Made by a program: the position numbers and the translations under genes
Notes under the pieces: model-generated
What the model was told of the DNA's origin: nothing
Databases searched by the model: none
What the model saw: the letters and a program-made list of their open reading frames with translations, nothing else
Part shown: piece by piece, positions 1,012-63,931 of the stretch
Layout: each line of letters begins with the position of its first letter
Numbering within the stretch: the first letter of the stretch is position 1
NCBI RefSeq assembly: GCF_014646815.1
Contig: NZ_BMNZ01000004.1
Coordinates: forward strand, 88,437-152,436
Direction of reading: 5' to 3'
DNA: 64,000 bases
From: Terrabacter tumescens
Lineage (GTDB): Bacteria; Actinomycetota; Actinomycetes; Actinomycetales; Dermatophilaceae

Positions 1012-1280
1012 GACGGTTCCTTTCGAGGGGTTGCTCCCGGGAGCGTCGGCTGCGCTCCGGCGGGGTGTGAGCTGTGCGGGTGTCCCGTCGGGGTCAGGGC
1101 TCGACGGGGCGCGGGGCGAGGGCGAGGCCGTCGACGAGGTTGCGCGTCTTCACGGTCCGTCCTCTCTTTCGGAGCAACGGCTGCGTATGCCGTCTGCCCC
1201 CTCTTCCGAGGACACCCCCTCCGTGGATGCACCGGACGCGAACTTTTTTCTGCGGCTCCGTCAGGGGGCTCGACCGCGGC

Positions 1281-1560
1281 TTCTCCGCCGGGGCGGAGTT
1301 TCGGGGCGCGGGAGGGTCAGCCGGCCGCGCCTTCTCCGCCGGGGCGGAGGTTGTGAGGCGCGGGAGGGTCAGCCGGCACGCGGCTTCTCCGCCGGGGCGG
1401 AGTTTCGGGGCGCGGGAGGGTCAGCCGGCACGCGGCTTCTCCGCCGGGGCGGAGTTTCGGGGCGCGGGAGGGTCCGCCGACCGCGACTTCTCGGCTGGGG
1501 CGGAGGTTTCGGGCCACGCCACGATGGAACGACCGCGACTTCACCGCCGGGGCGGGTCAG
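1281..1560. repeat. Six-copy tandem repeat, period 51-53 bp, with inverted core
   Basis: Copies begin at 1281, 1332, 1385, 1437, 1488 and 1540. Each carries a core reading TTCTCCGCCGGGGCGGAG (CTCCGCC and GGCGGAG are inverted around GG) followed by a GGGGCGCGGGAGGGTCAG-like tail; the last two copies are degenerate. The array fills half of the 545-bp gap between the DUF4397 gene (start 1011) and the amine oxidase gene (stop 1557). I see no gene in 1012-1280, only the ribosome-binding site of the DUF4397 gene at its left edge and one GTATGCCG at 1185. A related two-copy element lies at 18225-18303. Short unit length and lack of unique spacers argue against CRISPR. Confidence 0.9.
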
Positions 1561-2807
1561 AGGTGGACGTTGACCGCCTCGGCCGCGCGCTGGCCGGAGA
1601 CGAGGGCGCCCTGGATCGAGGCGGTGTCGCGGTGGTCGCCGCACACGAAGATGCCGTCGCCGAGCGTGACGGGGGAGCGCACCGTGAGCGGCGGCGTCAT
1701 CGCGGGCAGGGCGGCGTCGACGCGGTGCCGGGTGACGGTGCGCCAGCCGGAGGTGTCGCAGCCGTAGATCTCGCCGACGTGGCGCAGCACGTCGGCCTCG
1801 GGGGCGTCGCCGTCGGGACGGTCGAGCAGGCAGGTCGCCTCGACGAGGTGCTTCGTCGGCGGCGCGTAGCTCGGGGCGGCAGCGGTCATCACGGCGGTGT
1901 TCCAGACCGGACCGGGTGGCGCGGCGTCGTGGCGCCGCCGGCCGTCGACGGCGACGAGCGGCAGCGAGTGGGGCGGCTCCGGGGCCTCGAACCACCACGT
2001 CACGAGGCCCTTGGTCACCGGCTCGGGCAGCGTTGTGAGGGTGGACGCGCCGACGGGGTCGGTCGCCACGACGGCGCTGCGGGCGCTGAGGCGCTGGCCG
2101 TCGACGCGCACCTCGACGCCGCCGTGCACCGGGGTGATGGACTCGACGTGGCTCTGCAGCCGCACCCGGTCACCGAGCGGCGCGGCCACCTGCTTCGGCA
2201 GGGCCTGCATGCCGTTCGCCGGGACGGCCGGACGGCCCAGCGCGAACATCCGCACGAGGAGCTTGGTGAAGTTGGCCGAGGACCCGCCGTGACTGTCGAC
2301 GAGGACGCCGGCGAGGAACGGGTCGAGCACCTCTTGGCGCAGCCGCCCCGTGACGCCGGCCTCGTCGAGCGAGTCCGCCAAGGTCGAGTCCGGTTGTGCG
2401 ATGACGGTCTTCGGGTCGGCGATGACGCGTGCGGTCCACCGGGTGACGCCGGCCAGCTCGCGGGGGTGGAGGTAGCCGCTGCGCATCGTCTGCGCGAGCA
2501 GCCGGGGCTCGCGCACCGGGTCGGCCAGGACCTGAAGCCCGTTGCTGCGGCGCACCAGCACGCCCGAACCGAAGGGCTTGAGGTCGAGCGTCGACACGTC
2601 GACCCACCGCCGGACGGCGGGGTAGGCGGGGTTGAGCACCTGGAAGCCGCGGTCGCAGCGGAAGCCGTCGACGACGTCGGTGCGGATGCGACCGCCGACC
2701 GCGTCGCCGGCCTCGAGGACGATGACCTCGTGGCCGAGCTCGGTCAGGCGCCGAGCGCACCTCAGTCCAGCCAGCCCTGCCCCGACGATGACGACGTCAG
2801 CGTCCAC
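1557..2807 (-). CDS. FAD-dependent amine oxidase / protoporphyrinogen oxidase-like flavoprotein
   Basis: 416 residues from a GTG start. The start was chosen because the dinucleotide-binding fold begins immediately: VVIVGAGLAGL at residues 5-15 gives the GxGxxG of an FAD Rossmann fold, followed by the VLEAGDAVGG acidic loop and GGRIRT, the signature of the flavin-containing amine oxidase superfamily. The C-terminus has IFVCGDHRDTASIQGAL, the second FAD-contacting segment. The frame stays open far upstream, but that part is Pro-rich and overlaps the next gene's region. The substrate cannot be told; relatives include amine oxidases, protoporphyrinogen oxidases and carotenoid desaturases. There is no obvious operon partner; the TspO-like gene starts upstream on the same strand. 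Confidence 0.8.
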   Translation of the reverse strand: MDADVVIVGAGLAGLRCARRLTELGHEVIVLEAGDAVGGRIRTDVVDGFRCDRGFQVLNPAYPAVRRWVDVSTLDLKPFGSGVLVRRSNGLQVLADPVREPRLLAQTMRSGYLHPRELAGVTRWTARVIADPKTVIAQPDSTLADSLDEAGVTGRLRQEVLDPFLAGVLVDSHGGSSANFTKLLVRMFALGRPAVPANGMQALPKQVAAPLGDRVRLQSHVESITPVHGGVEVRVDGQRLSARSAVVATDPVGASTLTTLPEPVTKGLVTWWFEAPEPPHSLPLVAVDGRRRHDAAPPGPVWNTAVMTAAAPSYAPPTKHLVEATCLLDRPDGDAPEADVLRHVGEIYGCDTSGWRTVTRHRVDAALPAMTPPLTVRSPVTLGDGIFVCGDHRDTASIQGALVSGQRAAEAVNVHL

Positions 2808-2895
2808 GAAAGGATCACCCCACTGCTCGAGTCCGGCCCCCGTCGCAGCGTAGACCTCGACGGGGTGCGGCGGTGGGGGTGTGGCCGGGGGATCC

Positions 2896-3771
2896 TCAGA
2901 CGGCGCGGAGGCGGGGCGACGACTCACCGGACGGGGTCCGGCGGTCGCGCAGCCGCTGCGCCGCGAGCAGGACGACGACCGCGGCGACGACCGCGGCGAT
3001 GCCGGTCGCGACGGAACGGGGCTCGTCGCCGAGCCGCCCCACGGCGATCCAGGCCAGGCCCCAGGCCATCGCGGCCGCGACGGACCACCGGCCGCCGAGG
3101 CGTCGGGCGAAGAGCACGCCGAGACCGGCGGCCACGGCGAGGACGACCACGGCCACCAGCTGGTTGGCGGTGGCGCCGAGGTCGACGCGCGAATCGACCA
3201 GTGCCGCAGTGATGTTCGCGCAGGTCGCCACCGCAACCCAGCCGAGGTAGAGGCCGAACGTGACGTCGAGCAGGATGCGCTCCAGCGTCGACGCCGCGGT
3301 CTCGCGGGTCAGGCGCTGCACGAGTGTGCCGAGGGTCAGGGCGAGCGCGACGATGACGACGACGCTGACCCAGATCCAGCCCTGCTGCGTCACGAGCAGC
3401 CAGGCGGCGTTGAGCACCATCGAGGGGGCCGCGAGCCAGCCGGTGCTGCGGACGCGCTCGCGAACGGCGTTGGCGGGCAGGGCCTGCCACACGGCATACC
3501 CCAGCAGTCCGAGGTAGATCGGGGTCCAGATCGAGAAGGCCGGGCCCGCGGGCGCGATGAGCGTCGCGGTCGCGGCGAGGGCGCCGCCCGACGACTCCTC
3601 GACGCGGGTGCCGATGACGCCGACGCCGAAGAGCGTGCCGACGACGCAGAAGATCTCGGCGGCGATGACGGCGATCCGGCGCACCTGGTCGGTGGTCGTC
3701 AGGGTGGTAGACCGTGCGCTCGTCGAAGCGCTCGTCGGGTCGGAGGGCGGGCGGCTGGCGGATGTGGACAT
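2896..3771 (-). CDS. TspO/MBR-like (tryptophan-rich sensory) membrane protein
   Basis: 291 residues with about seven hydrophobic segments. Trp-containing motifs typical of the family are seen in FSIWTPIYLGLLGYAVWQ, NAAWLLVTQQGWIWV and MAWGLAWIAVG. It is longer than the classic ~160-residue TspO but matches the long actinobacterial form. I chose the ATG at 3771 because GAGGT sits six bases ahead; an ATG at 3804 would add 11 residues without a clear ribosome-binding site. The family binds porphyrins or other tetrapyrroles. Its neighbour downstream on the same strand is a protoporphyrinogen-oxidase-like flavoprotein, a suggestive but unproven link. Confidence 0.75.
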   Translation of the reverse strand: MSTSASRPPSDPTSASTSARSTTLTTTDQVRRIAVIAAEIFCVVGTLFGVGVIGTRVEESSGGALAATATLIAPAGPAFSIWTPIYLGLLGYAVWQALPANAVRERVRSTGWLAAPSMVLNAAWLLVTQQGWIWVSVVVIVALALTLGTLVQRLTRETAASTLERILLDVTFGLYLGWVAVATCANITAALVDSRVDLGATANQLVAVVVLAVAAGLGVLFARRLGGRWSVAAAMAWGLAWIAVGRLGDEPRSVATGIAAVVAAVVVLLAAQRLRDRRTPSGESSPRLRAV

Positions 3772-3843
3772 GTCGTGACCTCGGTCGCTCGGGAGATTGC
3801 TCATCCAGTTAGCGACCCTAACAGAGCCGTGGTGGTGACGCCC

Positions 3844-4614: not shown

Positions 4615-4620
4615 GCGCTC

Positions 4621-4626
4621 ACTCTA
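4621..4626 (-). promoter_or_regulatory. -10 box TAGAGT, probable leaderless promoter of ddaH
   Basis: On the minus strand TAGAGT fits the actinobacterial TANNNT -10 element and ends six bases before the GTG start of ddaH, so transcription would begin at or next to the start codon. Confidence 0.55.
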
Positions 4627-4708
4627 GGGTGCTGTCGGTCCGGGTCGTTCCGCCCTCCGGATCCGCTTGTGCCGCAACGCAGGAGCGTCGCCGCGAACGA
4701 CGAGGGCC

Positions 4709-5683: not shown

Positions 5684-5690
5684 GGCACCG

Positions 5691-5696: not shown

Positions 5697-5747
5697 GGGC
5701 GGACCCGGCCACACGGCATACGCAAGCGCACTCGTCTTCAATGGGAC

Positions 5748-6661: not shown

Positions 6662-6662
6662 G

Positions 6663-7709
<1,047 letters not shown>

Positions 7710-8557: not shown

Positions 8558-9714
8558 CCGTCTGGGACGACCTCGTCGGCCAGGGGCCGACCATCGAGAC
8601 GCTCTCGCGGGCGGTGTCCGACGAGTCGGCGATGACTCACGCGTGGCTCTTCACCGGTCCGCCCGGCTCGGGTCGGTCGACGGCCGCCCGCGCCTTCGCG
8701 GCCGCGCTCCAGTGCCCCGACGGCGGGTGCGGGCAGTGCCGCGAGTGCCGCACCGCCCTCGACGGCAGCCACGCCGACGTCAAGGTCGTCGCGACCGAGG
8801 GCCTGTCGATCAAGGTCGCCGAGGCACGCGCCCTCGTCCAGGAGGCCGCCCTGCGCCCGTCCGTCGGCCGCTGGCGCATCATCATCATCGAGGACGCCGA
8901 CCGCCTGACCGCCTACACCGACGCCCCCGCCGACGCGCTGCTCAAGGCGCTCGAGGAGCCGACGCCGCGCACCGTCTGGATGCTCTGCGCACCGAGCCTC
9001 GAGGACGTCATCGTGACGATCCGCTCGCGCTCGCGCCACGTGCGGCTGCGCACGCCGCCCGTCGAGGCCGTTGCCGACCTGCTCCAGCGCCGCGACGGCG
9101 TCGACCCCGCCATGGCGTTGTATGCCGCCCGCGCCGCCCAGTCGCACATCGGCCTCGCGCGTCGGCTGGCCCGCGACGAGCAGGCCCGCATCCGCCGCCG
9201 CGACGTCATCGCCATGGCCACGAAGATCCTCGGCGTCGGCGACGCCATCGGCGCCGCGGCCGACCTCGCCCAGATCGCCGACGAGGAGTCCACGGCCTCG
9301 AGCGCCGAGCGCGACGCCGCCGAGCGCTCCCGGCTCATGGAGACCCTCGGCGCCGACCCGACCGCACGCACCCAGCCGCCGCACATCCGCGCGCAGGTCG
9401 CGGCCCTCGAGCGCGAGCAGAAGACCCGCGCCACCCGCGCCGCCCGTGACGTCGTCGACCGCGCCCTCGTCGACCTCACCTCGATCTACCGCGACGCGCT
9501 CGTCCTGCGGCTGCGCTCCGACGTCGACCTCGTCAACCCCGACGCCGTCGACAAGGTGCGGGCCCTGGCCGGCGTCTTCACCCCCGAGCAGCTGCTCGAG
9601 GCGATGGACGCCATCAACGAGGCCCGCGACCGCATCAACGCCAACGTGCCGCCCCTCCTCGCGCTCGAGGCCATGGCCCTGCAGCTGCGGGTGCCCCGCG
9701 ACCTCGGCGTCTGA
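8554..9714 (+). CDS. holB: DNA polymerase III subunit delta'
   Basis: 386 residues. This clamp-loader subunit is an AAA+ protein with FTGPPGSGRSTAARAF (Walker A region, about residues 33-48), a zinc-binding cluster CPDGGCGQCRECR (about 56-68), IIIIEDADRLT (Walker B-like, acidic pair altered as usual in delta') and LLKALEEPTPRTVWMLC. The C-terminal ~200 residues form the collar domain. tmk-holB is a conserved actinobacterial pair. GTG start overlapping the tmk stop. Confidence 0.95.
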   Translation: MTVWDDLVGQGPTIETLSRAVSDESAMTHAWLFTGPPGSGRSTAARAFAAALQCPDGGCGQCRECRTALDGSHADVKVVATEGLSIKVAEARALVQEAALRPSVGRWRIIIIEDADRLTAYTDAPADALLKALEEPTPRTVWMLCAPSLEDVIVTIRSRSRHVRLRTPPVEAVADLLQRRDGVDPAMALYAARAAQSHIGLARRLARDEQARIRRRDVIAMATKILGVGDAIGAAADLAQIADEESTASSAERDAAERSRLMETLGADPTARTQPPHIRAQVAALEREQKTRATRAARDVVDRALVDLTSIYRDALVLRLRSDVDLVNPDAVDKVRALAGVFTPEQLLEAMDAINEARDRINANVPPLLALEAMALQLRVPRDLGV

Positions 9715-9821
9715 GACGCTTCCCACACCCACGGCGCCCGGCCCTCGACGGGCCACACGGCATACGGCCTCGATGCGGTCACGACTCCCCGTCGGGGCAG
9801 GCTGCATACAGGTCGACCCGT

Positions 9822-11388: not shown

Positions 11389-13160
11389 ACGAGGACCCGC
11401 GTCCCGACGACCTTCCCGACGCACCGACGGGGTATGCCGCCCTGCCGTCCGCCTACCCGCCGCCCCCGGGTGCCGACGGGGCGACCCCGCCCGCCGGGCC
11501 CGGCTGGTCCACCGGGGCAGCCGCGGCAGGTGGCGCGCGTCCGGGGCGGTCGTGGGTGCGCCCGGTCCTCGCGTCCGTGGCGGTGGTCGCCGTCATCGCC
11601 GTGGTCGCCCTAGCCGTCTGGCGCATCGGCAACCCGCCTCCCGTCGCACAGCCTCAGCCGCGGACCCCGGCGAGCACCTCGGGCCCCGCATCGCCCAGCC
11701 CCACCGCCGGCACCCCGACCACCGGCAACCCTGCGGCGCAGGGCTATCCGGCCGCGCTGGCCGCCTTCTACACGCAGAAGCTCGACTGGGCCCCGTGCTC
11801 CGACAACGCCAAGCACCGGTGCGCCACGATGGAGGTGCCCGTCGACTACGCCAAGCCAAACGGTGAGCGCTTCACCCTGGCCCTGCGCAAGGCCCCGGCC
11901 ACCGACCCCGCCAAGCGCCTCGGCTCCCTCGTCATCAACCCCGGCGGTCCCGGGGGCTCGGGTGTGGAGTACGCCCAGTACGCCTCGTTCGTCTTCTCTC
12001 CCGCGGTGCGGGCGGCCTACGACGTCGTCGGCTTCGACCCGCGGGGGATCGGCGCGTCCAGCCCGGTGCGCTGCCTGACCGACTCCGACATGGACCTGCT
12101 CTTCAGCGCCGACCCGACGCCCGACTCGCCGGCCGAGCGCTCGACCCTGCTCGGCGACGTCGACGGGGTGACCAAGCGCTGCGCGGCTCGGGGCGGCGAG
12201 CGCGCCATGCACATGAGCACCACCGAGGTGGCGCGCGACATGGACGTCATGCGCGTGCTGCTCGGCGACACCAAGCTCAACTTCTTCGGCGGCTCCTACG
12301 GCACGTTCCTCGGCGCGATCTACGCCGACACGTTCCCGGAGAGGGTCGGCCGCATGGTGCTCGACTCGGCGATGTCGCCCAACCAGACCGAGCAGCAGGA
12401 GATGACCTACGACATCCAGGGCTTCGAGTCCTCGATCGACGCGTTCATCGCCTGGTGCGTGGGGCGCAGCGACTGCGCGCTCGGCACCGACAGGGCCGGC
12501 GCCCGCCAGAAGATCGTCGACCTGCTCGACGCCGTCGAGAAGAAGGGGCTGACGACGAGCAAGCCCGGGCTGACGACGATCGGAGAGGGCTGGGTCGGCT
12601 TCTCGATCTTCATGTGCCTCTACTCCGACTCGTCCTGGCCGACCCTCAATAAGGGCCTCGCCCAGGCGTTCACCGGCAAGGGCGACATCCTGCTGGCCAA
12701 GGGCATGTCGGTCGTCGAGCGCGGCATCACGGGCGACTACGCCCCGACGACCTACCTGCAGGCGATGATTCCGGTCCGCTGCGCGGACTGGCCGCGGGCG
12801 AGCAGCGACCCGTCGCTCGTCGCGGAGCAGAAGCGGGCCCAGGCGGCCCACCCGTTGTGGGCCCGGATGACCGGCGAGCTCTACGACAACTGCCGCACGT
12901 GGCCGACGGCCGGGCGCACCCCCAAGGGCACGACGCTCGCCCAAGGGGCCGGACCCATCCTCGTCATCGGCAACGAGCGCGACCCCGCCACGCCCATCGG
13001 CGGCACGAAGCAGCTCGCCAAAGACCTCGCATCGGGCGTTCTTCTCACTTCGGACCACGACGGGCACGGCACCTACTACGCTGGCAACTCGTGCGTGGAC
13101 TCCGCCGTGGACGGGTACCTGCTCAGGGGAACGGCGCCGTCCGACGGCACGACCTGCTGA
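11382..13160 (+). CDS. S33-type alpha/beta hydrolase, membrane-anchored with Pro-rich cytoplasmic tail (second paralogue)
   Basis: 592 residues from a GTG that overlaps the previous stop by seven bases. Residues 1-58 are Pro/Ala/Gly-rich and cytoplasmic, residues about 60-80 form one membrane helix, and a Ser/Thr/Pro linker leads to the hydrolase from about residue 125. LVINPGGPGGSG, GFDPRGIG, nucleophile Ser305 (GGSYGT), Asp534 (NERDPATP) and His562 (DHDGHGTYY) complete the triad. It shares the conserved C-terminal SCVDSAVDGYL pattern with its neighbours. Same family as the first gene but with a different way of reaching the outside. Confidence 0.87.
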   Translation: MLNEDPRPDDLPDAPTGYAALPSAYPPPPGADGATPPAGPGWSTGAAAAGGARPGRSWVRPVLASVAVVAVIAVVALAVWRIGNPPPVAQPQPRTPASTSGPASPSPTAGTPTTGNPAAQGYPAALAAFYTQKLDWAPCSDNAKHRCATMEVPVDYAKPNGERFTLALRKAPATDPAKRLGSLVINPGGPGGSGVEYAQYASFVFSPAVRAAYDVVGFDPRGIGASSPVRCLTDSDMDLLFSADPTPDSPAERSTLLGDVDGVTKRCAARGGERAMHMSTTEVARDMDVMRVLLGDTKLNFFGGSYGTFLGAIYADTFPERVGRMVLDSAMSPNQTEQQEMTYDIQGFESSIDAFIAWCVGRSDCALGTDRAGARQKIVDLLDAVEKKGLTTSKPGLTTIGEGWVGFSIFMCLYSDSSWPTLNKGLAQAFTGKGDILLAKGMSVVERGITGDYAPTTYLQAMIPVRCADWPRASSDPSLVAEQKRAQAAHPLWARMTGELYDNCRTWPTAGRTPKGTTLAQGAGPILVIGNERDPATPIGGTKQLAKDLASGVLLTSDHDGHGTYYAGNSCVDSAVDGYLLRGTAPSDGTTC

Positions 13161-14836
13161 GCCGACTGCTCGCGCCCTTCATCTCCCTCGCGATCCTCGC
13201 GACCCTCCTGCTGCTCGCCATCGGGCCCTCCCACGTGCCCGGCGCCACCGCGTCCGGTGGGCAGGCCGGGCGGTCTGGAACGGCGGGCACGGCCCCAGCC
13301 GCGACCGACACAGCCGATGCGGCCGACTCCCCGGACGGCGAGGGCCACGAGCGTGACCGGGTCGAGCTCGGCACCCCGACCTCCAAGCCGGCCCAGGGGC
13401 TCGACGCCTTCTACGACCAGGCGATCAGCTGGATCCCGTGCAAGGGCGACGGCTCGTCGAGCACCGACCGCTGCGGCACCGTGCGCGTCCCCGTCGACTA
13501 CCTCGATCCCCGCGGCGAGACCGTCGAGATCGCGCTGCGCAAGGTGCCGGCCGAGAAGCCGACGCTGCGCAAGGGCACCCTCTTCATCAACCCGGGCGGC
13601 CCCGGCGCCTCCGGCCTCGACTTCGCCAAGGAGGCCCGGGACTTCTTCGCCGACGACGTGCGCGAGGTCTGGGACGTCGTCGGCTTCGACCCCCGCGGCA
13701 TCGGCGAGTCCGGTGGCTTCGCGTGCCTTCGGGCCAAGGACCTCGACGCGATGTATGCCGCCGACCCCACGCCGGACACCAAGGCCGAGAAGGCCGCGGT
13801 CGTGGCGTCGCGCACCGCGCGGCTCCAGGGGTGCCTCGCCCGCGGCGGCGCACTGGCACGAAACATGGGCTCCGAGCAGGTGGCCCGCGACCTCGACATC
13901 ATGCGCGACGCCGTGGGCGACGCCCACCTCAACTACTACGGCATCAGCTACGGCACGCTCATCGGGGCGCTCTACGGCGCCCAGTTCCCCGACCGGATCG
14001 GTCTCATGGTCATCGACTCGGCGGTCTCGCCCGACTACCTCCCGAGCAGCTCGGCGTCGCAGGACGACGTCGACCGGTGGGCCGGAGACGAGGCCGGGAC
14101 GGTCGAGGAGGGGCTCGACGCCTTCCTGCAGGACTGTGTCGACGGCGACGAGTGCCCGCTCGGCGACGACGTCGACACCGCGCGCACCACGCTGCTCTCC
14201 TTCCTCGACGGGCTCGACCGCAAGCCGCTGCCGAGCGACGCCCAGGGCATCCCGCGACTCACCGAGGGGTGGGCGGTGACGGCGGTCAACGCGGTCCTGC
14301 TCTACCCGGAGTCGTGGGAGGAGGTCGAGGACGCCCTTCGCGTGGCGCTCGAGGACCGCGACGGGACCGACCTCGTCTGGGCCGCGATGGACACCGTCAT
14401 GCGCGACGACGACGGGACCTACGTCGGTGGCTTCGAGGCCAGCCACCTCCCCATCCACTGCGCCGACTGGCCGCTCGACGCGACGGACGAGATGGAGCCC
14501 AGCCGGGCGGTGCTCGACGCGCACCCGGTCTACGCGCACCTCTACGGCGCCTCCACCGACTCGTGCCAGGGCTGGGTCGGCACGCAGCGCACCAACCTCA
14601 TCCTCACGGTCGACGCGGCCTCGCCGGTGCTCGTGCTGGCCAACGAGCGGGACCTGACGACACCGCCGGACGGCACTCGGGAGATGGGGCACGGCATCTT
14701 CGACTCGCGCTACATGCTCGTCGACGCGGACGGCCACGGGGCCTACTCCAACGGCAACGATTGTGCCGACGCGATCGTCGAGGACTACCTCGTGCGTGGC
14801 CTGGCGCCGCCCAACGGCGAGACCTGCGACGCCTGA
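13091..14836 (+). CDS. S33-type alpha/beta hydrolase, signal-anchored (third paralogue)
   Basis: 581 residues if the GTG at 13091 is used, which overlaps the previous gene by 70 bp in another frame. No ATG or GTG closer to the hydrophobic segment exists in this frame; a CTG at 13154 would give a compact signal anchor (LLSRLLAPFISLAILATLLL). The start is therefore uncertain. The catalytic domain is intact: LFINPGGPGASG, GFDPRGIG, Ser286 (GISYGT), Asp521 (NERDLTTPP) and His549 (DADGHGAYS), numbered from 13091. An acidic Ala/Asp linker separates the anchor from the enzyme. A hairpin terminator closes the operon. Confidence 0.83.
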   Translation: MRGLRRGRVPAQGNGAVRRHDLLSRLLAPFISLAILATLLLLAIGPSHVPGATASGGQAGRSGTAGTAPAATDTADAADSPDGEGHERDRVELGTPTSKPAQGLDAFYDQAISWIPCKGDGSSSTDRCGTVRVPVDYLDPRGETVEIALRKVPAEKPTLRKGTLFINPGGPGASGLDFAKEARDFFADDVREVWDVVGFDPRGIGESGGFACLRAKDLDAMYAADPTPDTKAEKAAVVASRTARLQGCLARGGALARNMGSEQVARDLDIMRDAVGDAHLNYYGISYGTLIGALYGAQFPDRIGLMVIDSAVSPDYLPSSSASQDDVDRWAGDEAGTVEEGLDAFLQDCVDGDECPLGDDVDTARTTLLSFLDGLDRKPLPSDAQGIPRLTEGWAVTAVNAVLLYPESWEEVEDALRVALEDRDGTDLVWAAMDTVMRDDDGTYVGGFEASHLPIHCADWPLDATDEMEPSRAVLDAHPVYAHLYGASTDSCQGWVGTQRTNLILTVDAASPVLVLANERDLTTPPDGTREMGHGIFDSRYMLVDADGHGAYSNGNDCADAIVEDYLVRGLAPPNGETCDA

Positions 14837-14895: not shown

Positions 14896-14936
14896 ACGGC
14901 TCGAGGGCGTATGCCGTGTGGTGCGGTGTGGTGCGG

Positions 14937-16277: not shown

Positions 16278-16394
16278 TCGCCGTTCCCGGCGGCTCTGCG
16301 CCGTGGGCGCACGCGTTCGCGTCGGTGTGCCGCGCCGCGGGCTGTCGTGCGGGGGGCGCCCGACCGGGCCACGCGGCATACGGCCCCGGAACGG

Positions 16395-22182: not shown

Positions 22183-22380
22183 CGACCCATTGTCGTATGC
22201 CGGGTCGTCGGCTCCGGGGTGGAACGCGCACGAGCGCTCGGGTGGGGTCGCACGCAACCGGGCGACACGGCATACGCCATCGGTCGGTTGAGGGCGCGAG
22301 GCGGCCGCCGGACCCGGGCGGACAAAGGTTACTGATCGGTCTTCGGACGACCGAGGGGGCGTTTCTCGGATCGTGGGACG

Positions 22381-44702: not shown

Positions 44703-45187
44703 GACCCCACTCCGGCATCCGCGTCACGACGCTCGTGCTCGCGGGGCTGGCCATGACGGTGGTGGCGTGGCTCGTGCTGCGCTGGCTCTCCTCGGGCGGC
44801 AGTCCCGTGCCCGAGCCGGGCTGGATCGGGGCAGCGGCCATGGTCTTCCTGGGTGGCGGGCTGCTCCTCGCCGGCTGGCAGGTGCGCAAGGTCCGTGACG
44901 GCCGACCCGACCCTGCGATCACGCCGCTGCGCGCGGCCCGCACGCTCGTGCTGGGCCAGGCGGGCGCCCTCACCGGGGCGGTGCTCGTCGGGTGGTATGC
45001 CGCGAACGCGCTCGTCCTGCTGCCCGACGGGGACGTCGACTCGCAGCGCAGCCGCATCTGGCTCTTCGTGCTGCACGCGGTCGTCGCGCTGCTGCTCGCG
45101 ACCGCCGGCATGGTCGTGCAGGCCTGGTGCCGGCTGCGACCGCGCGACGACGAGGACGACGAGGACGCCGGCGCCGCTCCACGCTGA
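44699..45187 (+). CDS. DUF3180 integral membrane protein
   Basis: 162 residues with four hydrophobic segments (about 10-28, 36-56, 84-104, 118-140) and an acidic C-terminus (DDEDDEDAG). It overlaps folBK by four bases. This family is nearly always downstream of folK in actinobacteria, but its role is unknown; a folate link is only implied by position. Confidence 0.88.
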   Translation: MRPHSGIRVTTLVLAGLAMTVVAWLVLRWLSSGGSPVPEPGWIGAAAMVFLGGGLLLAGWQVRKVRDGRPDPAITPLRAARTLVLGQAGALTGAVLVGWYAANALVLLPDGDVDSQRSRIWLFVLHAVVALLLATAGMVVQAWCRLRPRDDEDDEDAGAAPR

Positions 45188-46790: not shown

Positions 46791-46856
46791 CGTCGGTCAT
46801 GCGATCGAGTATGCCGTGAGCGCCCTCGCGCCCGTCACGCGGCGTAGCGTCGTGCG

Positions 46857-47874: not shown

Positions 47875-48867
47875 TCAGGTTACGTCGTGCCCGCGGACGC
47901 GTTTCACCGCCCACCAGAAGCCCCCGAAGCCGTCGCGGTGGAGCAGCTGCGCCTCGGTGCTCGCGTGCTCGAGCCCCGCGAGGTAGGCGAGCGGGTCGGC
48001 CCCCGCGAGCGCGTGCGGCGGGGTGGCGCCGGTCAGCCCGAGGGCCTGCAGCGCCTCGCGCTGAGGACGCACGACGTCGGCATCGAGGGTGTCCACGGCG
48101 ACGTGCGCGGTGAGGTCGCACGAGCCGTCGGGCACGGGCGTGGTCAGCTGCCCGTTCGCGTATGCCGTGAGCGTCCCCCCGGCAGGACGCCCGGTCGCCG
48201 TGTGGCCGTAGTCCACGGCGACGAGCGTGCCCGAGTCGACGCGCGAGACCAGGTCGGTCCAGGCCTCGTCGCGGGCGCGGCCGACCTCGATGCGGTCGCC
48301 GGGGCTGGTCGTGGGCCAGTGCGCGTCGGCCCACTGCCGGTCCTGCCCGGACAGCGGGGCGCCGAGCGACTCCGCACCGGTGTCCGGGTCGACGAGGACC
48401 TCGCGTGCCGTGCCGTCGGCGTCGACCTCCGCCACGGTGCAGGGCACGACGTCGAGCCACTCGTGGGCGATGACGAGGGCGTCGCTCAGGCCGGTCAGCT
48501 CGGGCGGCAGGCCTGCGCCACCGGGGGAGCGGAGCCACTCGACGCGGCGGTCGAGGCCGGCCGGCCGGTCCACGACGTCGACGGCGACGACGCGGGTCGT
48601 CTGCGGGGTGCGCGTGCCGCCAGGGCTGGTCGGGTCCATGGCGTCCACGAGGTGGGTCGCGAGCTCGCCCCGGCCGGCACCGACGTCGACGACGACCCGT
48701 ACCGGGTGGTCGGGGAGCGCGAGCAGCGCCCGCGCGAGCCTCGCCCCCGTGGCTCCGTGGGCGGCCGTCGTGAAGTGCGCCGCCGGGCCGCCGCGCGTGA
48801 CGTAGAAACCCCGGCTCACGGCATACAACGCCTCGTGCCACGCCTCGCGCCAGGGAACGGGATCCAC
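47875..48867 (-). CDS. MidA/NDUFAF7-type SAM-dependent methyltransferase
   Basis: 330 residues. The N-terminal helix region FYVTRGGPAAHFTTAAHGATG and VRVVVDVGAGRGELATHL (SAM motif I, about residue 57-74) match the COG1565/MidA family, followed by VIAHEWLDVVPC (the family NEWLD-like motif) and VAVDYGHT. In mitochondria the family member NDUFAF7 methylates an Arg of the complex I subunit NDUFS2, the NuoD counterpart. A NuoD-like gene lies about 1.1 kb away. The GTG start has TACAGT eight bases upstream. copC follows directly. Confidence 0.85.
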   Translation of the reverse strand: MDPVPWREAWHEALYAVSRGFYVTRGGPAAHFTTAAHGATGARLARALLALPDHPVRVVVDVGAGRGELATHLVDAMDPTSPGGTRTPQTTRVVAVDVVDRPAGLDRRVEWLRSPGGAGLPPELTGLSDALVIAHEWLDVVPCTVAEVDADGTAREVLVDPDTGAESLGAPLSGQDRQWADAHWPTTSPGDRIEVGRARDEAWTDLVSRVDSGTLVAVDYGHTATGRPAGGTLTAYANGQLTTPVPDGSCDLTAHVAVDTLDADVVRPQREALQALGLTGATPPHALAGADPLAYLAGLEHASTEAQLLHRDGFGGFWWAVKRVRGHDVT

Positions 48868-51271: not shown

Positions 51272-51283
51272 GAGGCCAGTCGT

Positions 51284-53131
51284 ATGCCGCAGAGCGGGCT
51301 CCCCGAGGTGACCGTCCCCCGGCGGCTGCGTGCGCCCGCGCCCGGCTGGACGGCCACGGCCGACGTCATCGTCGTCGGCTCCGGCATCGCCGGGCTCACG
51401 ACCGCGCTCCGGCTGCGCCGACGGGTCGACCGCGTGCTGCTCGTGACGAAGACGGTGCTCGACGAGGGCTCGACCGCCTGGGCGCAGGGTGGCATCGCCG
51501 CCGTCATGTCGCCGGAGGACAGCCCGGCGGAGCACATCCACGACACGCTCGTCGCCGGCGTCGGGCTCTGCGACGTCGACGCCGTCGAGGCGCTCGTGCG
51601 CGAGGGCACCGACGCCGTCTGGGACCTCATCGCGCTCGGGGCCGAGTTCGACCGCGGCGACACGGGCGGGCTCTCCCTGACCCGCGAGGGCGGCCACCAC
51701 CGCGACCGCATCCTGCACGCCGGCGGCGATGCGACCGGGCGCGAGATCAGCCGCGCCCTCATCGCCGCGCTCGACCGGGTGCGCGACGACCCCGGCATCG
51801 AGGTCATCGAGCACGCCCTCGTCGTCGACCTGCTCACCGACGCCGACGAGCGCGTCTGCGGGGTGACGCTGCACGTCATCGGCGAGGGCCAGGTCGACGG
51901 TGTCGGCGCGGCGCACGCCCGTGCCGTCGTGCTCGCGACCGGTGGCCTCGGCCAGATCTACGCCTCGACGACCAACCCGTCCGTCGCCACCGGTGACGGC
52001 ATGGCCGCCGCGCTCAGGGCAGGCGCCGTGCTCGCCGACCTCGAGTTCGTCCAGTTCCACCCCACCGTCCTCTGGCTCGGTGAGGGCTCGCGCGGACAGC
52101 AGCCGCTCATCTCCGAGGCGGTGCGCGGCGAGGGTGCATTCCTCGTCGACGAGGCCGGCGAGCGCTTCATGCAGGGCCAGCACCCGCTCGCCGACCTCGC
52201 GCCGCGCGACGTCGTGGCCCGCGCCATCATCGCCCGGATGCGCGAGACCGGCACCGACCATGTCTACCTCGACTGCCGCCACCTCGGCGCGGAGTTCCTC
52301 GAGCAGCGCTTCCCCTCGATCGTCCAGCGCTGTCGCGAGCTCGGCTTCGACCCGGCGACCCAGCTGCTCCCGGTCGCGCCCGCCCAGCACTACGCGAGCG
52401 GCGGTGTGCGCACCGACCTGCGCGGGCGCTCCTCGCTCGAGGGCCTCTACGCCTGCGGCGAGACGTCGTGCACGGGCGTCCACGGTGCCAACCGCCTCGC
52501 CTCGAACTCCCTCCTCGAGGGTCTCGTCTTCGCCCGCCGCATCGCCGACGACCTCACGACGCGCCTCGCCGCCGGTGAGCTCCCCGAGGCGACGCCCGTC
52601 GCGCCGGACGGTCAGCCCGAGCTGATCCGCGGCAAGCGGCGGCTCGACGTGCAGCGCGCCATGACCGCCGGGTCGGGCACGGTGCGCTCGGCGGCCTCAC
52701 TCGCCGCGACCGAGCAGACCCTGGCCGGGCTCGCGGCCCGGGCCGTCGACGACGACGCCGACAAGCAGGGCGGTCCCAAGAGCTGGGAGACGACCAACCT
52801 GCTCCACCTCGGACGCGCGCTGACGTATGCCGCCGCGCTGCGAGACGAGACCCGCGGCGGTCACGTGCGCGAGGACTTCCCGGCCCGCGACGACGCGCAC
52901 TTCCTCCACCACGTGCACCTCCGACGCTCCGGGTCCGGCGTGCTCGAGGCGACGGTCGTACCGGTGCCTCCGTCCAACCTCGACGGTCTCGACCTCGACG
53001 GCGCCGGAGCGTCGACCCAGAGGGACGTCCTCGACGAGGACCGCGCGGAGGGCACGGCGACCGCGAAACCCCTTGCACGGCATACGCGATCGGTGGACCA
53101 GACGGTGGACGACACGAAGGAGACGCAGTGA
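51284..53131 (+). CDS. nadB: L-aspartate oxidase
   Basis: 615 residues, somewhat longer than the ~540 of E. coli because of a C-terminal extension. It oxidises aspartate to iminoaspartate for NAD synthesis. VIVVGSGIAGLTTALRLRR is the FAD fold; STAWAQGGIAAVMSPEDS, TREGGHHRDRILHAGGDATG, and GGVRTDLRGRSSLEGLYACGETSCTGVHGANRLASNS (several conserved blocks here abbreviated by position 375-410) are the catalytic and FAD segments. GAGAGGCC before the ATG. Overlaps nadC by four bases. nadA is not adjacent. Confidence 0.95.
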   Translation: MPQSGLPEVTVPRRLRAPAPGWTATADVIVVGSGIAGLTTALRLRRRVDRVLLVTKTVLDEGSTAWAQGGIAAVMSPEDSPAEHIHDTLVAGVGLCDVDAVEALVREGTDAVWDLIALGAEFDRGDTGGLSLTREGGHHRDRILHAGGDATGREISRALIAALDRVRDDPGIEVIEHALVVDLLTDADERVCGVTLHVIGEGQVDGVGAAHARAVVLATGGLGQIYASTTNPSVATGDGMAAALRAGAVLADLEFVQFHPTVLWLGEGSRGQQPLISEAVRGEGAFLVDEAGERFMQGQHPLADLAPRDVVARAIIARMRETGTDHVYLDCRHLGAEFLEQRFPSIVQRCRELGFDPATQLLPVAPAQHYASGGVRTDLRGRSSLEGLYACGETSCTGVHGANRLASNSLLEGLVFARRIADDLTTRLAAGELPEATPVAPDGQPELIRGKRRLDVQRAMTAGSGTVRSAASLAATEQTLAGLAARAVDDDADKQGGPKSWETTNLLHLGRALTYAAALRDETRGGHVREDFPARDDAHFLHHVHLRRSGSGVLEATVVPVPPSNLDGLDLDGAGASTQRDVLDEDRAEGTATAKPLARHTRSVDQTVDDTKETQ

Positions 53132-55819: not shown

Positions 55820-56923
55820 TCAGGCCGGGGCCGGGTGCGCTGTCCTGGCGGCGCTGCGCTTGAGGACGTGCTGCGCGACGTGGGCGGCGTCGCGCCCGAC
55901 GCCCGGAAGCACCATCGAGGCGAACGCGTACTGGAAGGCGAGGCCGCAGAAGTAGAGGCCCGGCACGTCGCTGGAGACGCCCCGGAACTCCCGGGGCCAG
56001 CCGTCCTCGCCGATGACCGGGAGGTCGACCCAGTCGAAGCGCTGCGCGAAGCCGGTTGCCCAGACGACGTTGGCGACGTCGACGACTGTGCCGTCGTCGA
56101 GGGTGGGGCGACCGTCGGTGACGCCGACGACGCGTTGCGTCCGGCGCTCGACGCCGCGCGCCGCGAGGTCCTCCCGCTTGACGCGCAGCATCGGTCCACC
56201 GTGGTGACGGATCTCGCCCATCATCTTGCGCCCCATGGGAGTTCGCCGCGTCAGCACGTGCCGCCATGCGAAGAGCAAGACGGGGAAGACGACGTGGACG
56301 GCCTTGGTGTCCCACCGCACCGGGGGCTGCCCGCAGTCGCGGCCGGCCAGCACCGTCGGACGGGACTGCCCCAGCTCGTAGGCGATGTCGCACCCGGAGT
56401 GCGAGGCGCCGACGACGAGGACCGGCCCCTCCCGCAGCTGGCTCGGCCGGCGGTACTCGCTCGAGTGCAGCTGCAGGATCGACGGGTCGAGGTCCGCCGC
56501 GAACGCCGGCACGTGGGGTGACCGCCCGAAGGTGCCCGTCGCGACGACCACGTTGTGGCACGCGATGTCGCCCGTGTCCGTCGTGACGACGAAGCCGTCC
56601 CCGTCGGCGGTCGCTGCGAGACGCTCCACGCGCACGCCGAGGCGGACGGGGAGGTCGAAGCGGACGGCATACGACTGCAGGTATGCCGCGACGTCGTCCT
56701 TGCCGGGGAACGACCTCGGGTCGCCCGGGAAGTCGAGGCCCGGCAGCCCGTCGTGGCGGGCGGGGGAGTAGAGGCGGAGCGAGTCGTACTGCTGGCGCCA
56801 GCCATCGCCGACGGCCTGGTTGCGCTCGAGCACCACGCACTCGTGGCCGCGGCTGACGAGCTCGCGCGCCGTGGCGAGGCCCGCCTGGCCTGCGCCGATG
56901 ATGACGGTCTCGATGGTCTCCAT
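55820..56923 (-). CDS. Flavin-containing monooxygenase-like NAD(P)/FAD oxidoreductase
   Basis: 367 residues. IETVIIGAGQAGLATAREL (about 3-21) is the FAD fold; VLVVGASHSGCDIAYEL near residue 170 is the NAD(P) fold with the GxSxxG form of flavin monooxygenases; WATGF near residue 310 is the ATG motif. The protein lacks the long insertions of Baeyer-Villiger enzymes. Excellent ribosome-binding site GGGAGGACACC. Convergent to the LuxR-type gene with a 33-bp gap. Substrate unknown. Confidence 0.85.
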   Translation of the reverse strand: METIETVIIGAGQAGLATARELVSRGHECVVLERNQAVGDGWRQQYDSLRLYSPARHDGLPGLDFPGDPRSFPGKDDVAAYLQSYAVRFDLPVRLGVRVERLAATADGDGFVVTTDTGDIACHNVVVATGTFGRSPHVPAFAADLDPSILQLHSSEYRRPSQLREGPVLVVGASHSGCDIAYELGQSRPTVLAGRDCGQPPVRWDTKAVHVVFPVLLFAWRHVLTRRTPMGRKMMGEIRHHGGPMLRVKREDLAARGVERRTQRVVGVTDGRPTLDDGTVVDVANVVWATGFAQRFDWVDLPVIGEDGWPREFRGVSSDVPGLYFCGLAFQYAFASMVLPGVGRDAAHVAQHVLKRSAARTAHPAPA

Positions 56924-57133: not shown

Positions 57134-57823
57134 TCAGTAGCGGCGGTGCCAGAGGTTGACGGCGTAGTCGACGCCGGTGGCGTCCGGGTGCTCGGCGAGG
57201 ATGAGGTCGGCGTGCTCAGGCGCGAACTCGATGGCGACGACGGCCTCGAAGTCCTCGCGCGAGTCGAAGTCCCAGCGGATGTCGAGCCGCTCGCGCTCCC
57301 ACCCCTGCCGCTGCCAGAAGCGCTCGACGGCACGAGGGTCGTAGGAGGGCAGCGCCCGCCGGAACCACTGGCCGAACGTCGACCGCGTCGCGTCGTTGTC
57401 GATGACGAACGCCGCACCGCCCGGACGCATGACGCGCTCGAGCTCTACCAGCCCCGGCTCGCAGCCCGGCCCGAAGAAGTACGCCCACCGCGCATGCGCC
57501 ACGTCGAAGGACTCGTCGGGCACCCCGATCGCGGCCGCGCCCTCCTCACGGACCGAGACGGACGGCATACGCGAGATGCGTTGTGCCGCAATGGCGGCCA
57601 GCGGCGGGTGCGGCTCGACACCGACGACCGACCGCGCGTCGGCAGCGAAGTACGGCAGGTGGTAGCCGGTGCCGCACCCGACGTCGAGGACGTCGCGGCC
57701 CGACCAGTCCAGCACCGCGCGCATCGCGTCCTCGATGACGTGGGCGCGGTCGACGCCGCGGTTCTCGACCTCGTAGACGTCGGGCGTCTCCCAGATGTTG
57801 GGGGACGGGATGATCTCGCTCAT
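57134..57823 (-). CDS. Class I SAM-dependent methyltransferase
   Basis: 229 residues. VLDVGCGTGYHLPYF (about 45-59) is SAM motif I; VVGVEPHP is the acidic-loop strand, FDVAHARWAYFFGPG motif II and RVMRPGGAAFVIDND motif III. A methyltransferase-11-type protein with unknown acceptor. It starts seven bases after the Cys-rich gene on the same strand (GTGAGGCGACG as ribosome-binding site), so the two form an operon. The 210-bp gap downstream of the monooxygenase start holds nothing clear. Confidence 0.85.
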   Translation of the reverse strand: MSEIIPSPNIWETPDVYEVENRGVDRAHVIEDAMRAVLDWSGRDVLDVGCGTGYHLPYFAADARSVVGVEPHPPLAAIAAQRISRMPSVSVREEGAAAIGVPDESFDVAHARWAYFFGPGCEPGLVELERVMRPGGAAFVIDNDATRSTFGQWFRRALPSYDPRAVERFWQRQGWERERLDIRWDFDSREDFEAVVAIEFAPEHADLILAEHPDATGVDYAVNLWHRRY

Positions 57824-58643: not shown

Positions 58644-58892
58644 TGCCGCCGACGTTTCCACCGCGCTCGCGACGCCCACGTCGTGGGCACGTCGTCCACG
58701 TCGTGGTCCGGGAGGACTGCCTGCGTATGCCGGGTGCTTCCGTCGGCGCCCACGCCGGCGTAGCGTGGCGGTGGCGTCCAGGTCGCCTCCGGTGCGCGGG
58801 AAGGGGCTCAGCCCTCCTGGGAGAGAACGGCATGCGGTCCGACCTCCTTTCGGCCCGACCAGCGCACGCGGGCACGACGAGAGGAGGCCGCC

Positions 58893-60655: not shown

Positions 60656-60805
60656 GGTCGCGTCGACCCTCTTTCACACGGGTCCGTCGATCCTTCTGGC
60701 GGACCGGACATCTCGATTGTCGGACGCCGCTCGGCCACGGTCAACGGTCAGCCGTCGCCCTGCGCGCGTGCGCGCAGCCCGCGGCGGGCGGCATACGGTG
60801 TCCCC

Positions 60806-62192: not shown

Positions 62193-62923
62193 ACGGCGCA
62201 CTGACCGTCGCCACCTCGGGCCGCGTGCTGCGCCAGGTCCGCACCGACCGCCGCACCATCGCCCTGATCATCGTCGTGCCCTGCGTGCTGCTCGGGCTGC
62301 TCGCCTGGATCTACGACGGCACGCCCGTCTTCGACGCCATCGGGCCGGCCCTGCTCGGCGTCTTCCCGATGGTCGTCATGTTCATCGTGACCTCCGTCTC
62401 GACCTTGCGCGAACGCCAGTCCGGCACCCTCGAGCGTCTCCTGACAACGCCGATGGGCAAGGGCGACTTCATGATGGGGTATGCCGCGGCGTTCGGTGCG
62501 CTCTCCACCGTGCAGGCCCTGATCGCAACGGGATTCGCAGTCTGGGTCTGTGGTCTCGACGTCGCCGGACCGCTGTGGCTGCTCGTCGTCGTCGCCGTCT
62601 TCGACGCCGTGCTCGGCACGGCTCTCGGGCTGCTCGCGAGCGGCTTCGCGCGCACCGAGTTCCAGGCGGTGCAGTTCATGCCGGCGTTCCTGCTGCCGCA
62701 GTTCCTGCTGTGCGGGCTGCTCGTCCCTCGCGACCAGATGCCCACCGTGCTCGAGTGGGTGAGCAACGTGCTGCCCCTGTCCTACGCCGTCGACGCGATG
62801 AAGGAGATCGCCGGCAATCCCGACCCCGTCACCGCGGTCCTGGGCGACCTCGGGATCGTCGCGGCCTTCATCGCCGGTGCCCTCGCCCTCGCCTCGCTCA
62901 CGTTGAGCCGCCGCTCCGCCTGA
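62189..62923 (+). CDS. ABC-2 type transporter permease
   Basis: 244 residues, six membrane helices. VTSVSTLRERQSGTLERLLTTPM (about 68-90) is the coupling-helix region of ABC-2 exporters; LLPQFLLCGLLVPRDQMP and LPLSYAVDAMKEI are the other conserved stretches. GTG overlaps the ATPase stop. Together with the ATPase it should form an efflux pump for a drug or lipid-like compound, induced when the TetR protein binds its ligand. Confidence 0.93.
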   Translation: MNGALTVATSGRVLRQVRTDRRTIALIIVVPCVLLGLLAWIYDGTPVFDAIGPALLGVFPMVVMFIVTSVSTLRERQSGTLERLLTTPMGKGDFMMGYAAAFGALSTVQALIATGFAVWVCGLDVAGPLWLLVVVAVFDAVLGTALGLLASGFARTEFQAVQFMPAFLLPQFLLCGLLVPRDQMPTVLEWVSNVLPLSYAVDAMKEIAGNPDPVTAVLGDLGIVAAFIAGALALASLTLSRRSA

Positions 62924-62956
62924 CGGCATACGGCCCCTCGGCCCCGCTCCACCCGA

Positions 62957-62973
62957 CCGAACGCCGCGTTCGG
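62957..62973. repeat. Family B core palindrome
   Basis: CCGAACGCCGCGTTCGG, the self-complementary core of the repeats at 7727-7791 and 31090-31119, between the ABC permease and the Ppx/GppA promoter. Confidence 0.65.
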
Positions 62974-62988
62974 GGAGGGAGCCGTGAC

Positions 62989-62994
62989 TAGGGT
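62989..62994 (+). promoter_or_regulatory. -10 box TAGGGT, leaderless promoter of the Ppx/GppA gene
   Basis: TAGGGT is followed by exactly seven bases and the ATG at 63002. Confidence 0.55.
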
Positions 62995-63001
62995 TGGGGG
63001 C

Positions 63002-63931
63002 ATGCGCCTGGGCGTCATCGACATCGGGTCCAACACGGTCCACCTCCTCGTCGTCGACGCACACCCCGGCGCGCAGCCGTTGCCTGCCTTCTCGCACAAG
63101 ACCGAGCTGCGCCTGTCCGAGAGCCTCGAGGTGGACGGCCGGGTCAGCGACGAGACGGCCGACCGGCTCGTCGCCTTCATCCGCGAGTGCCTCGAGGTGG
63201 CCGAGGACCACGGCGTCGGCGACCTCTTCGCCTTCGCGACGTCGGCGCTGCGCGAGTCGCCCAACGGGGACGCCGTCATCGAGCGGGTGCGCGCCGAGAC
63301 GGGCGTCGAGCTCGAGGCGCTGAGCGGCCCTGACGAGGCCAGGATGACCTTCCTCGCGGTGCGCCGCTGGTTCGGCTGGTCGAGCGGACGGCTGCTCGTC
63401 GTCGACATCGGCGGCGGCTCGCTCGAGCTCGCGACCGGCCTCGACGAGGAGCCCGACGTCGCCCTCAGCCTCCCGCTCGGCGCGGGGCGGCTGACCCGCG
63501 AGCACCTGCATGACGACCCGCCGACCGAGGCCGCCGCGCGCGAGCTGCGCTCGCTGGTGCGCTCGACCCTGGCCAGGCACGTGCGACCGCTGCTGACCTC
63601 CGGGCCGCCCGACCGCGCCGTCGGCACCTCCAAGACGATGCGCTCGCTCGCCCGGATCGCCGGAGCGGCGCCCCGCGCCGACGGGCCGTTCGTGCCGCGC
63701 ACCCTGACCCGCGACGACCTCCGCGAGATCGTCGCGCGCGTCGGACCCCTCGACAGCGCTGCCCGCTCCGAGCTGCCCGGCGTCTCCGAGGGCCGGGCCC
63801 GCCAGCTGTATGCCGGCGCGCTCGTGGCCGAGGCCGCCCTCGACCTGCTGCAGGTCGAGCAGCTCGACATCTGCCCCTGGGCGCTGCGCGAGGGCCTCAT
63901 TCTCCGGCGCCTCGACCACCTCACCTCATGA
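63002..63931 (+). CDS. Exopolyphosphatase / guanosine pentaphosphatase family protein
   Basis: 309 residues, the short actinobacterial Ppx1/2 type. [17 protein letters not shown] is the phosphate-1 motif, [14 protein letters not shown] is conserved, [14 protein letters not shown] is phosphate-2 and [16 protein letters not shown] the third block. The family hydrolyses polyphosphate or (p)ppGpp; which one cannot be told. The N-terminal Met starts the fold directly. A further gene appears to begin at 63928 with a four-base overlap. Confidence 0.92.

Follow-up and report, generated by a model that had tools for sequence, protein, structure and literature searches.

We analysed a 64,000-nt stretch of Terrabacter tumescens DNA (NZ_BMNZ01000004.1, positions 88,437-152,436; hereafter the window) for the dispersed octamer GTATGCCG. 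This asymmetric 8-bp word belongs to a set of words that occupy hundreds to thousands of sites on both strands, differ by single letters between lineages (hereafter dialects), and are carried together with one type of Tad/Flp pilus locus. Judged from these genomic patterns, there is probably a DNA-uptake-sequence-like system in Actinomycetota that is read during Tad-pilus transformation, with GTATGCCG as its local dialect. Most marks of an uptake-sequence system that we examined are there: the word is abundant, lies on both strands and both within and between genes, has dialects and few deviants, is scarce in inserted DNA, and is linked to a type of pilus that serves DNA uptake elsewhere in the phylum.

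An initial annotation of the window had reported at least 41 copies of the octamer. We found exactly 41 (25 on the + and 16 on the - strand), against 0.79 expected from dinucleotide shuffles (maximum 3 in 100 shuffles). All but three of the positions given there were exact, the others being off by 1-2 bases (27914 is corrected to 27916, 56666 to 56665 and 56682 to 56681). Under an order-2 Markov model, GTATGCCG was the top-ranked 8-mer both in the window (41 versus 1.0 expected) and in 464 kb of the same genome (G000; 242 versus 7.0 expected). The maximal-order Markov check gave an expectation of 40.05 for the 41 copies in the window and is uninformative for such a word, because the 7-mers within it exist almost only as its parts. 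The enrichment extended across the whole assembly (4,707,860 bases), with 1,158 forward and 1,200 reverse copies, 2,358 in all or one copy per 2 kb, compared to 199 (111 + 88) for the reversed-word control, which bears out the earlier proposal of a genome-wide recognition site. As with known uptake sequences, the word is thus short and abundant far above chance (up to 4,491 copies for its variant GGATGCCG), and single deviations from it are rare: in the 464 kb, one-mismatch words with at least 5 expected copies were enriched 1.8-fold at most (GGATGCCG 1.8, GTAGGCCG 1.6), and the rarer CTATGCCG was found 11 times versus 4.5 expected. Preferences in the flanks were weak (C at -1, 64%; T at +8, 49%; C or G at +9, with C at 50%). 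A and T were nearly absent at +12, +15 and +21, and the outer preferences are probably in part a reading-frame effect.

We counted the word in 117 genomes of the order, 71 from the Dermatophilaceae (Intrasporangiaceae), the family of G000 (f1; G000 included), and 46 from other families. Among named records, the ComEC of G000 is closest to those of Terrabacter and Terracoccus (76-79% identity in the best segment). High GTATGCCG counts were confined to f1, where the maximum was 4,724 copies in 4.2 Mb (G015) and the distribution was patchy; G047, whose tadA is intact, had 3,225 copies. Among 346 genomes from across the phylum, four of them f1, the highest count outside f1 was 386 in 7.5 Mb (G165), and the densest genome noticed there had 161 copies in 1.8 Mb (G386). 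Ranking the k-mers in pieces of motif-poor f1 relatives yielded one-letter variants that whole-genome counts confirmed, namely GGATGCCG (G034 3,949; G024 3,816; G052 2,195; G009 1,336), GTACGCCG (G048 3,903; G056 2,618; G031 2,216; G032 1,359; G062 1,125) and GAATGCCG (G020 3,135; G059 730). When 8-mers were ranked by over-representation without prior choice, the dialect came first in 400 kb of G000 and in each of five further genomes, of which 73-80 kb were ranked. All dialects share the inner core G[T/G/A]A[T/C]GCCG, as would be expected of uptake-sequence dialects, the case being weakest for GTACGCCG.

For carriage we used density thresholds per Mb of 200 for GTATGCCG (GT), 350 for GGATGCCG (GG), 300 for GTACGCCG (GTAC) and 200 for GAATGCCG (GA). 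Sixty f1 genomes were tabulated; the 11 omitted were incomplete assemblies or further members of listed genera, all GTATGCCG-rich. At least one word was carried by 37 of the 60, and 23 fell below all four thresholds. The carriers comprised 29 genomes with GTATGCCG (three of them with a second word), five with GTACGCCG alone and three with GGATGCCG alone, so that 8 of the 31 GTATGCCG-poor tabulated relatives have GGATGCCG or GTACGCCG instead; GAATGCCG was found beside GTATGCCG in two genomes. Backgrounds are high for the common-codon dialects, reaching ∼240 per Mb for GGATGCCG in unremarkable genomes. For GTACGCCG, three f5 genomes had 199-308 per Mb, and the background outside f1 reached 308 per Mb (G108), so that G062 (312 per Mb) is unsure as a carrier. 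Two dialects at high count occur in G020 (GAATGCCG 3,135 and GTATGCCG 1,025), G052 and G059, which look as if caught in a dialect switch. The congeners G009 and G061 have 1,336 and 614 copies of GGATGCCG, the latter being background, and both keep the pilus ATPase gene.

A second family of the same order (f19), perhaps Microbacteriaceae to judge by its size and its members with small genomes, also carries GGATGCCG. Across 199 f19 genomes, counts ranged from background to 4,491 copies in 3.4 Mb (G106); G378 and G555 had 4,128 and 3,949 copies versus reversed-word controls of 300 and 262. One f1 genome with the pilus locus and none of the four words, G046 (L152, L240-L242), has the unrelated 9-mer CGAAGGGGG 46 times in 80 kb versus 2.2 expected (strands 22/24), possibly a second kind of uptake-like word. 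In 16 other motif-poor f1 genomes (16-80 kb each) we found no comparable word except a poly-G run in G016, and sampling 15 other families of the order, with 17 pieces of 13-20 kb (two shorter ones omitted), revealed no clear dispersed word. Pieces this small can miss a word; in one 20 kb piece of G048 (L167), the dialect lay outside the top three. The top word of G071, GGACGCCG (30 versus 5.9), conforms to the pattern, although the scores of other codon-type words in that genome are close behind. In another family of the order, 20 kb of G088 (L218) contains a repeat with TATGCGGG ∼53 times, perhaps a CRISPR array.

We then asked how the word sits in genes, using our own codon-based gene finder on the 464 kb of G000. 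There, 173 of 242 copies were genic and 69 intergenic or at gene edges; with non-coding DNA making up 10.8% of the sequence, the density between genes was ∼3 times higher. Copies outside genes were likewise in excess in G034 (26/70), G020 (17/55), G015 (20/100) and G048 (13/56). Among the genic copies, 108 read nnG-TAT-GCC-Gnn (Tyr-Ala), and the remaining 65 were antisense or in other frames. In the context G-TAY-GCC-G, TAT was used 108 times and TAC 17 times, compared to 76 and 2256 in all other contexts (p 2e-118), and TAT:TAC was 0:33 when just the final G of the context was missing. Because the rare TAT beats TAC precisely in the word context, it is the word as DNA that is being kept, in opposition to codon usage. 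Control codons tested in this context in G000 gave 0:23 for AAT:AAC and 9:77 for GAT:GAC, the latter a small excess over 256:8621 elsewhere. The preference recurred in the other dialects, with GAT:GAC at 51:15 in G106 (283:1113 elsewhere) and 15:11 in G034 (24:1530 elsewhere), and AAT:AAC at 11:0 in G020 (56:365 elsewhere), as well as for TAT:TAC in the word context of G015 (36:6, versus 43:371 elsewhere). For GTACGCCG the test (p 0.24) says nothing, since this dialect uses the common codon. What keeps the word in place thus works at the level of the DNA and prevails over codon preference, and the earlier statement that protein sequence does not explain the copies held up, given the preferred rare TAT and the antisense, other-frame and intergenic copies.

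Copies were also conserved. Three close relatives were aligned over ∼20 kb each; in every one of these alignments 8 of the 10 alignable copies were identical, whereas for 8-mers as a whole the share was 36-38% (p 0.009 for one relative). The corresponding figures were 6 of 9 versus 24% in a Humibacillus alignment; among alignable copies, 2 of 3 were identical in Intrasporangium oryzae and 0 of 3 in the motif-free Intrasporangium flavum. The 41 copies of GTATGCCG in the window are as follows (position, strand, context).

1185..1192, +, intergenic
3492..3499, -, gene 2896-3804, frame nnG-TAT-GCC-G
5714..5721, -, intergenic
7196..7203, +, gene 6675-7709, frame nnG-TAT-GCC-G
7265..7272, +, gene 6675-7709, frame nnG-TAT-GCC-G
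9120..9127, +, gene 8554-9714, frame nnG-TAT-GCC-G
9758..9765, -, intergenic
11432..11439, +, intergenic
13753..13760, +, gene 13091-14836, frame nnG-TAT-GCC-G
14909..14916, +, intergenic
16374..16381, -, intergenic
17675..17682, +, gene 16602-17732, frame nnG-TAT-GCC-G
18443..18450, -, gene 18327-19574, frame nnG-TAT-GCC-G
22195..22202, +, intergenic
22268..22275, -, intergenic
24383..24390, +, gene 23847-25187, frame nnG-TAT-GCC-G
25382..25389, -, antisense in gene 25286-25648
27916..27923, -, gene 27563-28498, frame nnG-TAT-GCC-G
28148..28155, +, antisense in gene 27563-28498
30668..30675, +, gene 29541-31055, frame nnG-TAT-GCC-G
33480..33487, +, gene 32845-33801, frame nnG-TAT-GCC-G
33657..33664, -, antisense in gene 32845-33801
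34609..34616, +, gene 34520-36130, frame nnG-TAT-GCC-G
35182..35189, +, gene 34520-36130, frame nnG-TAT-GCC-G
39397..39404, -, antisense in gene 39066-39890
39566..39573, +, gene 39066-39890, frame nnG-TAT-GCC-G
44995..45002, +, gene 44699-45187, frame nnG-TAT-GCC-G
46809..46816, +, intergenic
48160..48167, +, antisense in gene 47875-48867
48819..48826, -, gene 47875-48867, frame nnG-TAT-GCC-G
51282..51289, +, start of gene 51284-53131, counted as intergenic or edge
52825..52832, +, gene 51284-53131, frame nnG-TAT-GCC-G
53078..53085, -, antisense in gene 51284-53131
56665..56672, -, gene 55820-57007, frame nnG-TAT-GCC-G, inverted pair with 56681
56681..56688, +, antisense in gene 55820-57007, inverted pair with 56665
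57563..57570, -, gene 57134-57823, another sense frame
58725..58732, +, intergenic
60789..60796, -, intergenic
62479..62486, +, gene 62189-62923, frame nnG-TAT-GCC-G
62924..62931, -, intergenic, immediately behind gene 62189-62923
63808..63815, +, gene 63002-63931, frame nnG-TAT-GCC-G

Copies occurred in both orientations without a general strand bias, as uptake sequences do. Over 400 kb of G000 there were 102 + and 99 - copies although the sign of the GC skew changes (the origin was not located). Whole-genome dialect counts were balanced as well (1977 + 1972, 1966 + 1850, 1942 + 1961, 1309 + 1309, 1561 + 1574 and 2229 + 2262), and strand counts in pieces of other genomes ranged from 60:81 to 34:22. 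Copies in G000 were spaced more regularly than chance would give (variance/mean 0.54 per 5 kb bin), and neighbouring copies alternated in orientation, 161 pairs being opposite versus 79 the same. The effect was strongest below 1 kb (opposite 67 versus same 15, 67/82) and faded beyond 2 kb, whereas control words in G000 gave opposite:same ratios of 148:179, 3:7, 64:78 and 219:184. Opposite pairs also prevailed in 17 motif-rich loci of named relatives (163 versus 77; 87/122 for <1 kb), in G034 (46:23) and in G015 (60:38). Gene context does not explain the alternation, because opposite pairs dominate within one gene (20:11), between a gene and an intergenic copy (22:2) and between co-directional genes (10:0). 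Nor is the alternation general: G106 (70:70) and G048 (27:28) lacked it, and G020 (29:23) showed it weakly. In the open-licence literature, we found no match for orientation alternation of uptake sequences. Transcription terminators were considered and rejected: only 13 of 240 neighbour gaps in the 464 kb were <100 bp, so hairpin pairs explain few copies.

The genome of T. tumescens has a Tad/Flp locus on contig C6, with a T2SSE ATPase in two parts, two T2SSF proteins, TadE and a TadG-like protein, and a second one on contig C12 with Flp pilins. Among f1 genomes, C6-type tadA (called at a best E <1e-80) was present in 31 of the 32 that carry a word and in 12 of the 22 that do not (p 2e-4). In f19, where genomes were picked from both ends of the GGATGCCG count range, it was present in 11 of 12 GGATGCCG-rich and 5 of 14 GGATGCCG-poor genomes (p 0.005), and for both families combined the association had p ∼1e-6. 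The f1 test uses written thresholds; with classes set by eye (G027 counted as positive) and genomes collapsed to genus, the association had p 0.001. The word thus co-occurs, with exceptions, with a pilus of a type used in DNA uptake. T2SSF matches numbered at least 3 in all 34 positive f1 genomes scored and at most 2 in 8 of 23 negatives. Type IVa pili do not track the word: their PilM was found in just 2 of 51 genomes, with no ComP search made. In G025, tadA gave a partial match only (34-212).

On the reading proposed here, a minor pilin of the Tad competence pilus, or a protein that works with it at the surface, would bind the word in extracellular DNA. Word-bearing DNA would be taken up preferentially and would then pass ComEC as a single strand, and the incoming strand would recombine with the homologous locus. 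Copies would accumulate because word-bearing alleles are re-imported more often than alleles without the word. Genomes would move to a new dialect when the specificity of the receptor changes, and the word would decay where the pilus is lost.

Several points weigh against this reading. Uptake specificity, the receptor and competence itself are what we infer, and the likeness to Micrococcus luteus discussed below is one of Tad/Flp pilus type. The carriage thresholds were written after the counts had been seen, and the p-values for tadA are too small because the genomes are related. Two positive genomes, G055 (1,624 copies) and G603 (2,873 copies of GGATGCCG), lack C6-type tadA, which 12 of the 22 word-negative f1 genomes have; ComEC, found in 56 of 57 genomes, does not discriminate. 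Tad minor pilins showed no visible divergence in step with the dialect, only one close GG genome (G024) being comparable and the pilins of G008 and G034 not covered. The intergenic excess was absent in G106 (18 of 141 copies, with 10.6% non-coding DNA). We found no open-licence paper containing both 'Intrasporangiaceae' and 'natural transformation'. Finally, a 5.5 kb element that encodes a serine recombinase splits the C6-type tadA of G000 at about codon 208, at an apparent P-loop, so that transformation of this strain may first require loss of the element. With the locus broken in G000, G001, G008, G015 and G034, competence may at present be lacking in several carriers. The elements within tadA are located as follows.

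L179:12212-17689, element in tadA, G000 contig C6
L235:5848-16885, element in tadA, G015
L181, about 215-8690, element in tadA, G001

In G015, an 11 kb element has hit tadA at the same place (about codon 208) with a recombinase 33% identical to that of G000, and in G001 the gene is interrupted at another position. The serine recombinases of these elements differ, being 33-37% identical to that of G000. In G008 (L225:5416-6141) and G034 (L222:5667-6566), the match to tadC ends at residue 239-241, with unrelated genes beyond it, which makes tadC a likely second insertion place in the pilus operon. Mobile elements of this kind can disable competence genes. An intragenomic conflict of mobile elements and transformation is reportedly the subject of one paper, to judge by its title (PMC11472951). 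Repeated disruption of the tad locus agrees with a competence role and is no proof of it. The three elements within tadA together contain 3 copies of the word versus ∼18.5 expected, the scarcity in acquired DNA that an uptake sequence would show; their outer limits are approximate, and the sample is small and mostly from G015.

The initial annotation was right about a genome-wide recognition site, and the function that fits best, DNA uptake, was missing from its list of roles. Among those it did name, a Chi-like or segregation role is disfavoured by the lack of strand polarity over the 400 kb and of any positive link to RecC. A recombination hotspot read by RecBCD, AddAB or the actinobacterial AdnAB in double-strand break repair would suit a frequent, genome-wide octamer, and one copy per 2 kb is within the Chi-like range. 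We nevertheless regard it as quite unlikely: the two orientations stay balanced across a change of GC-skew sign, the dialects and the tad link are left unexplained, and RecC, found in 14 of 42 genomes and not in 28, G000 included, trends the opposite way (7 of 31 positive versus 7 of 9 negative f1 genomes). A genome-wide site of a nucleoid-associated, looping or segregation protein is unlikely too, even though a looping protein could suit both the even spacing and the opposite neighbours below 1 kb. In a dialect switch, the protein would then have to change in concert with thousands of sites although nothing drives them, 23 of the 60 tabulated f1 genomes lie below all four thresholds, three of six genomes show little or no neighbour alternation, and the tad association is unexplained.

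That a methyltransferase or a mismatch-repair process keeps the word, by methylation or in the manner of HIP1, is very unlikely. HIP1 of cyanobacteria is likewise an abundant octamer inside genes, but it is palindromic, unlike GTATGCCG, methyltransferases seldom have asymmetric sites with all 8 bp specified, and again the tad link is unexplained. Methylation and a nucleoid protein, both on the earlier list, thus keep a small share of the probability while leaving the dialects, the Tad link and the depletion in inserted elements without an account. A by-product of codon or dipeptide usage, or the spread of a small mobile repeat, is hardly credible. One frame, Tyr-Ala, is indeed common to 108 of the 173 genic copies, but the codon tests in G000 and the other genomes run against usage, and the 65 genic copies that are antisense or in other frames and the 69 intergenic or gene-edge copies refute a usage origin; a mobile repeat is at odds with flanks that show weak preferences only.

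A bolder version of the uptake reading, to which we incline somewhat less than to its denial, is that this is a third independent sequence-tagged transformation system, read by Tad/Flp instead of type IVa pili in at least two families of Actinomycetota and in at least four related dialects plus the wholly different CGAAGGGGG in G046. Directional uptake would keep neighbours below 1 kb opposite, and mobile elements would fight the system by repeated insertion into tadA and tadC. Among the open-licence matches listed for uptake sequences in Actinobacteria, Gram-positives or Intrasporangiaceae, no title or abstract start described an uptake word in Actinomycetota, and among the matches listed for literature containing the letters of the octamer no title was on this subject. 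If true, a third case, Gram-positive and with dialects, would show that self-tagged uptake evolves repeatedly. Dialect switches between close relatives, such as Terrabacter-like GT and GG genomes (G000, G023 and G047 versus G024 and G034), would become studiable, and soil and wastewater bacteria might become open to genetics by a simple means, the addition of the right eight letters to the DNA.

As for the remaining content of the window, positions 34520-42164 hold a housekeeping run of an S13 D-Ala-D-Ala carboxypeptidase, a zincin-like peptidase, a phosphoribosyltransferase and FtsH, and the other window proteins scanned (20 in all) likewise match common families. A tRNA-Thr (CGT) at 16158-16231 (+) is the sole Rfam match at gathering score.

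Among known systems, HIP1 of cyanobacteria resembles GTATGCCG as an abundant octamer of debated function and differs in its palindromic sequence, GCGATCGC. According to a 2025 article, the Neisseriaceae and Pasteurellaceae, both Proteobacteria, are the only families known to discriminate DNA in such a way (PMC12616744). The uptake signal sequence (USS) of Pasteurellaceae is likewise an abundant word with two dialect types and often in inverted arrangement; it is unrelated in sequence and AT-rich downstream, whereas the flanks here are weak and G+C rich (PMC12616744). The DNA uptake sequence (DUS) of Neisseriaceae, with its receptor ComP, is closer in kind, a short asymmetric word in hundreds to thousands of genic and intergenic copies, with lineage dialects and rare single deviations (PMC3630211, PMC5031613, PMC12616744). 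It belongs to a different phylum, and here the core is 8 bp and 49 of 51 genomes lack PilM. GTATGCCG does not contain CTG, the core essential to the DUS (PMC3630211, PMC5031613). The Neisseria DUS ATGCCGTCTGAA (PMC2346458) shares ATGCCG with GTATGCCG, after which the commonest letters here are T (49%) and C (50%); this sharing is probably a coincidence. The nearest likeness in pilus type is to M. luteus, whose transformation requires Tad/Flp pili, the main text of that paper being without the term 'DNA uptake sequence' (PMC4322843). Like T. tumescens, M. luteus belongs to the Actinomycetota, with tad loci comprising the ATPase, TadB/C (T2SSF) and TadE/TadG-like pilins, and with comEC.

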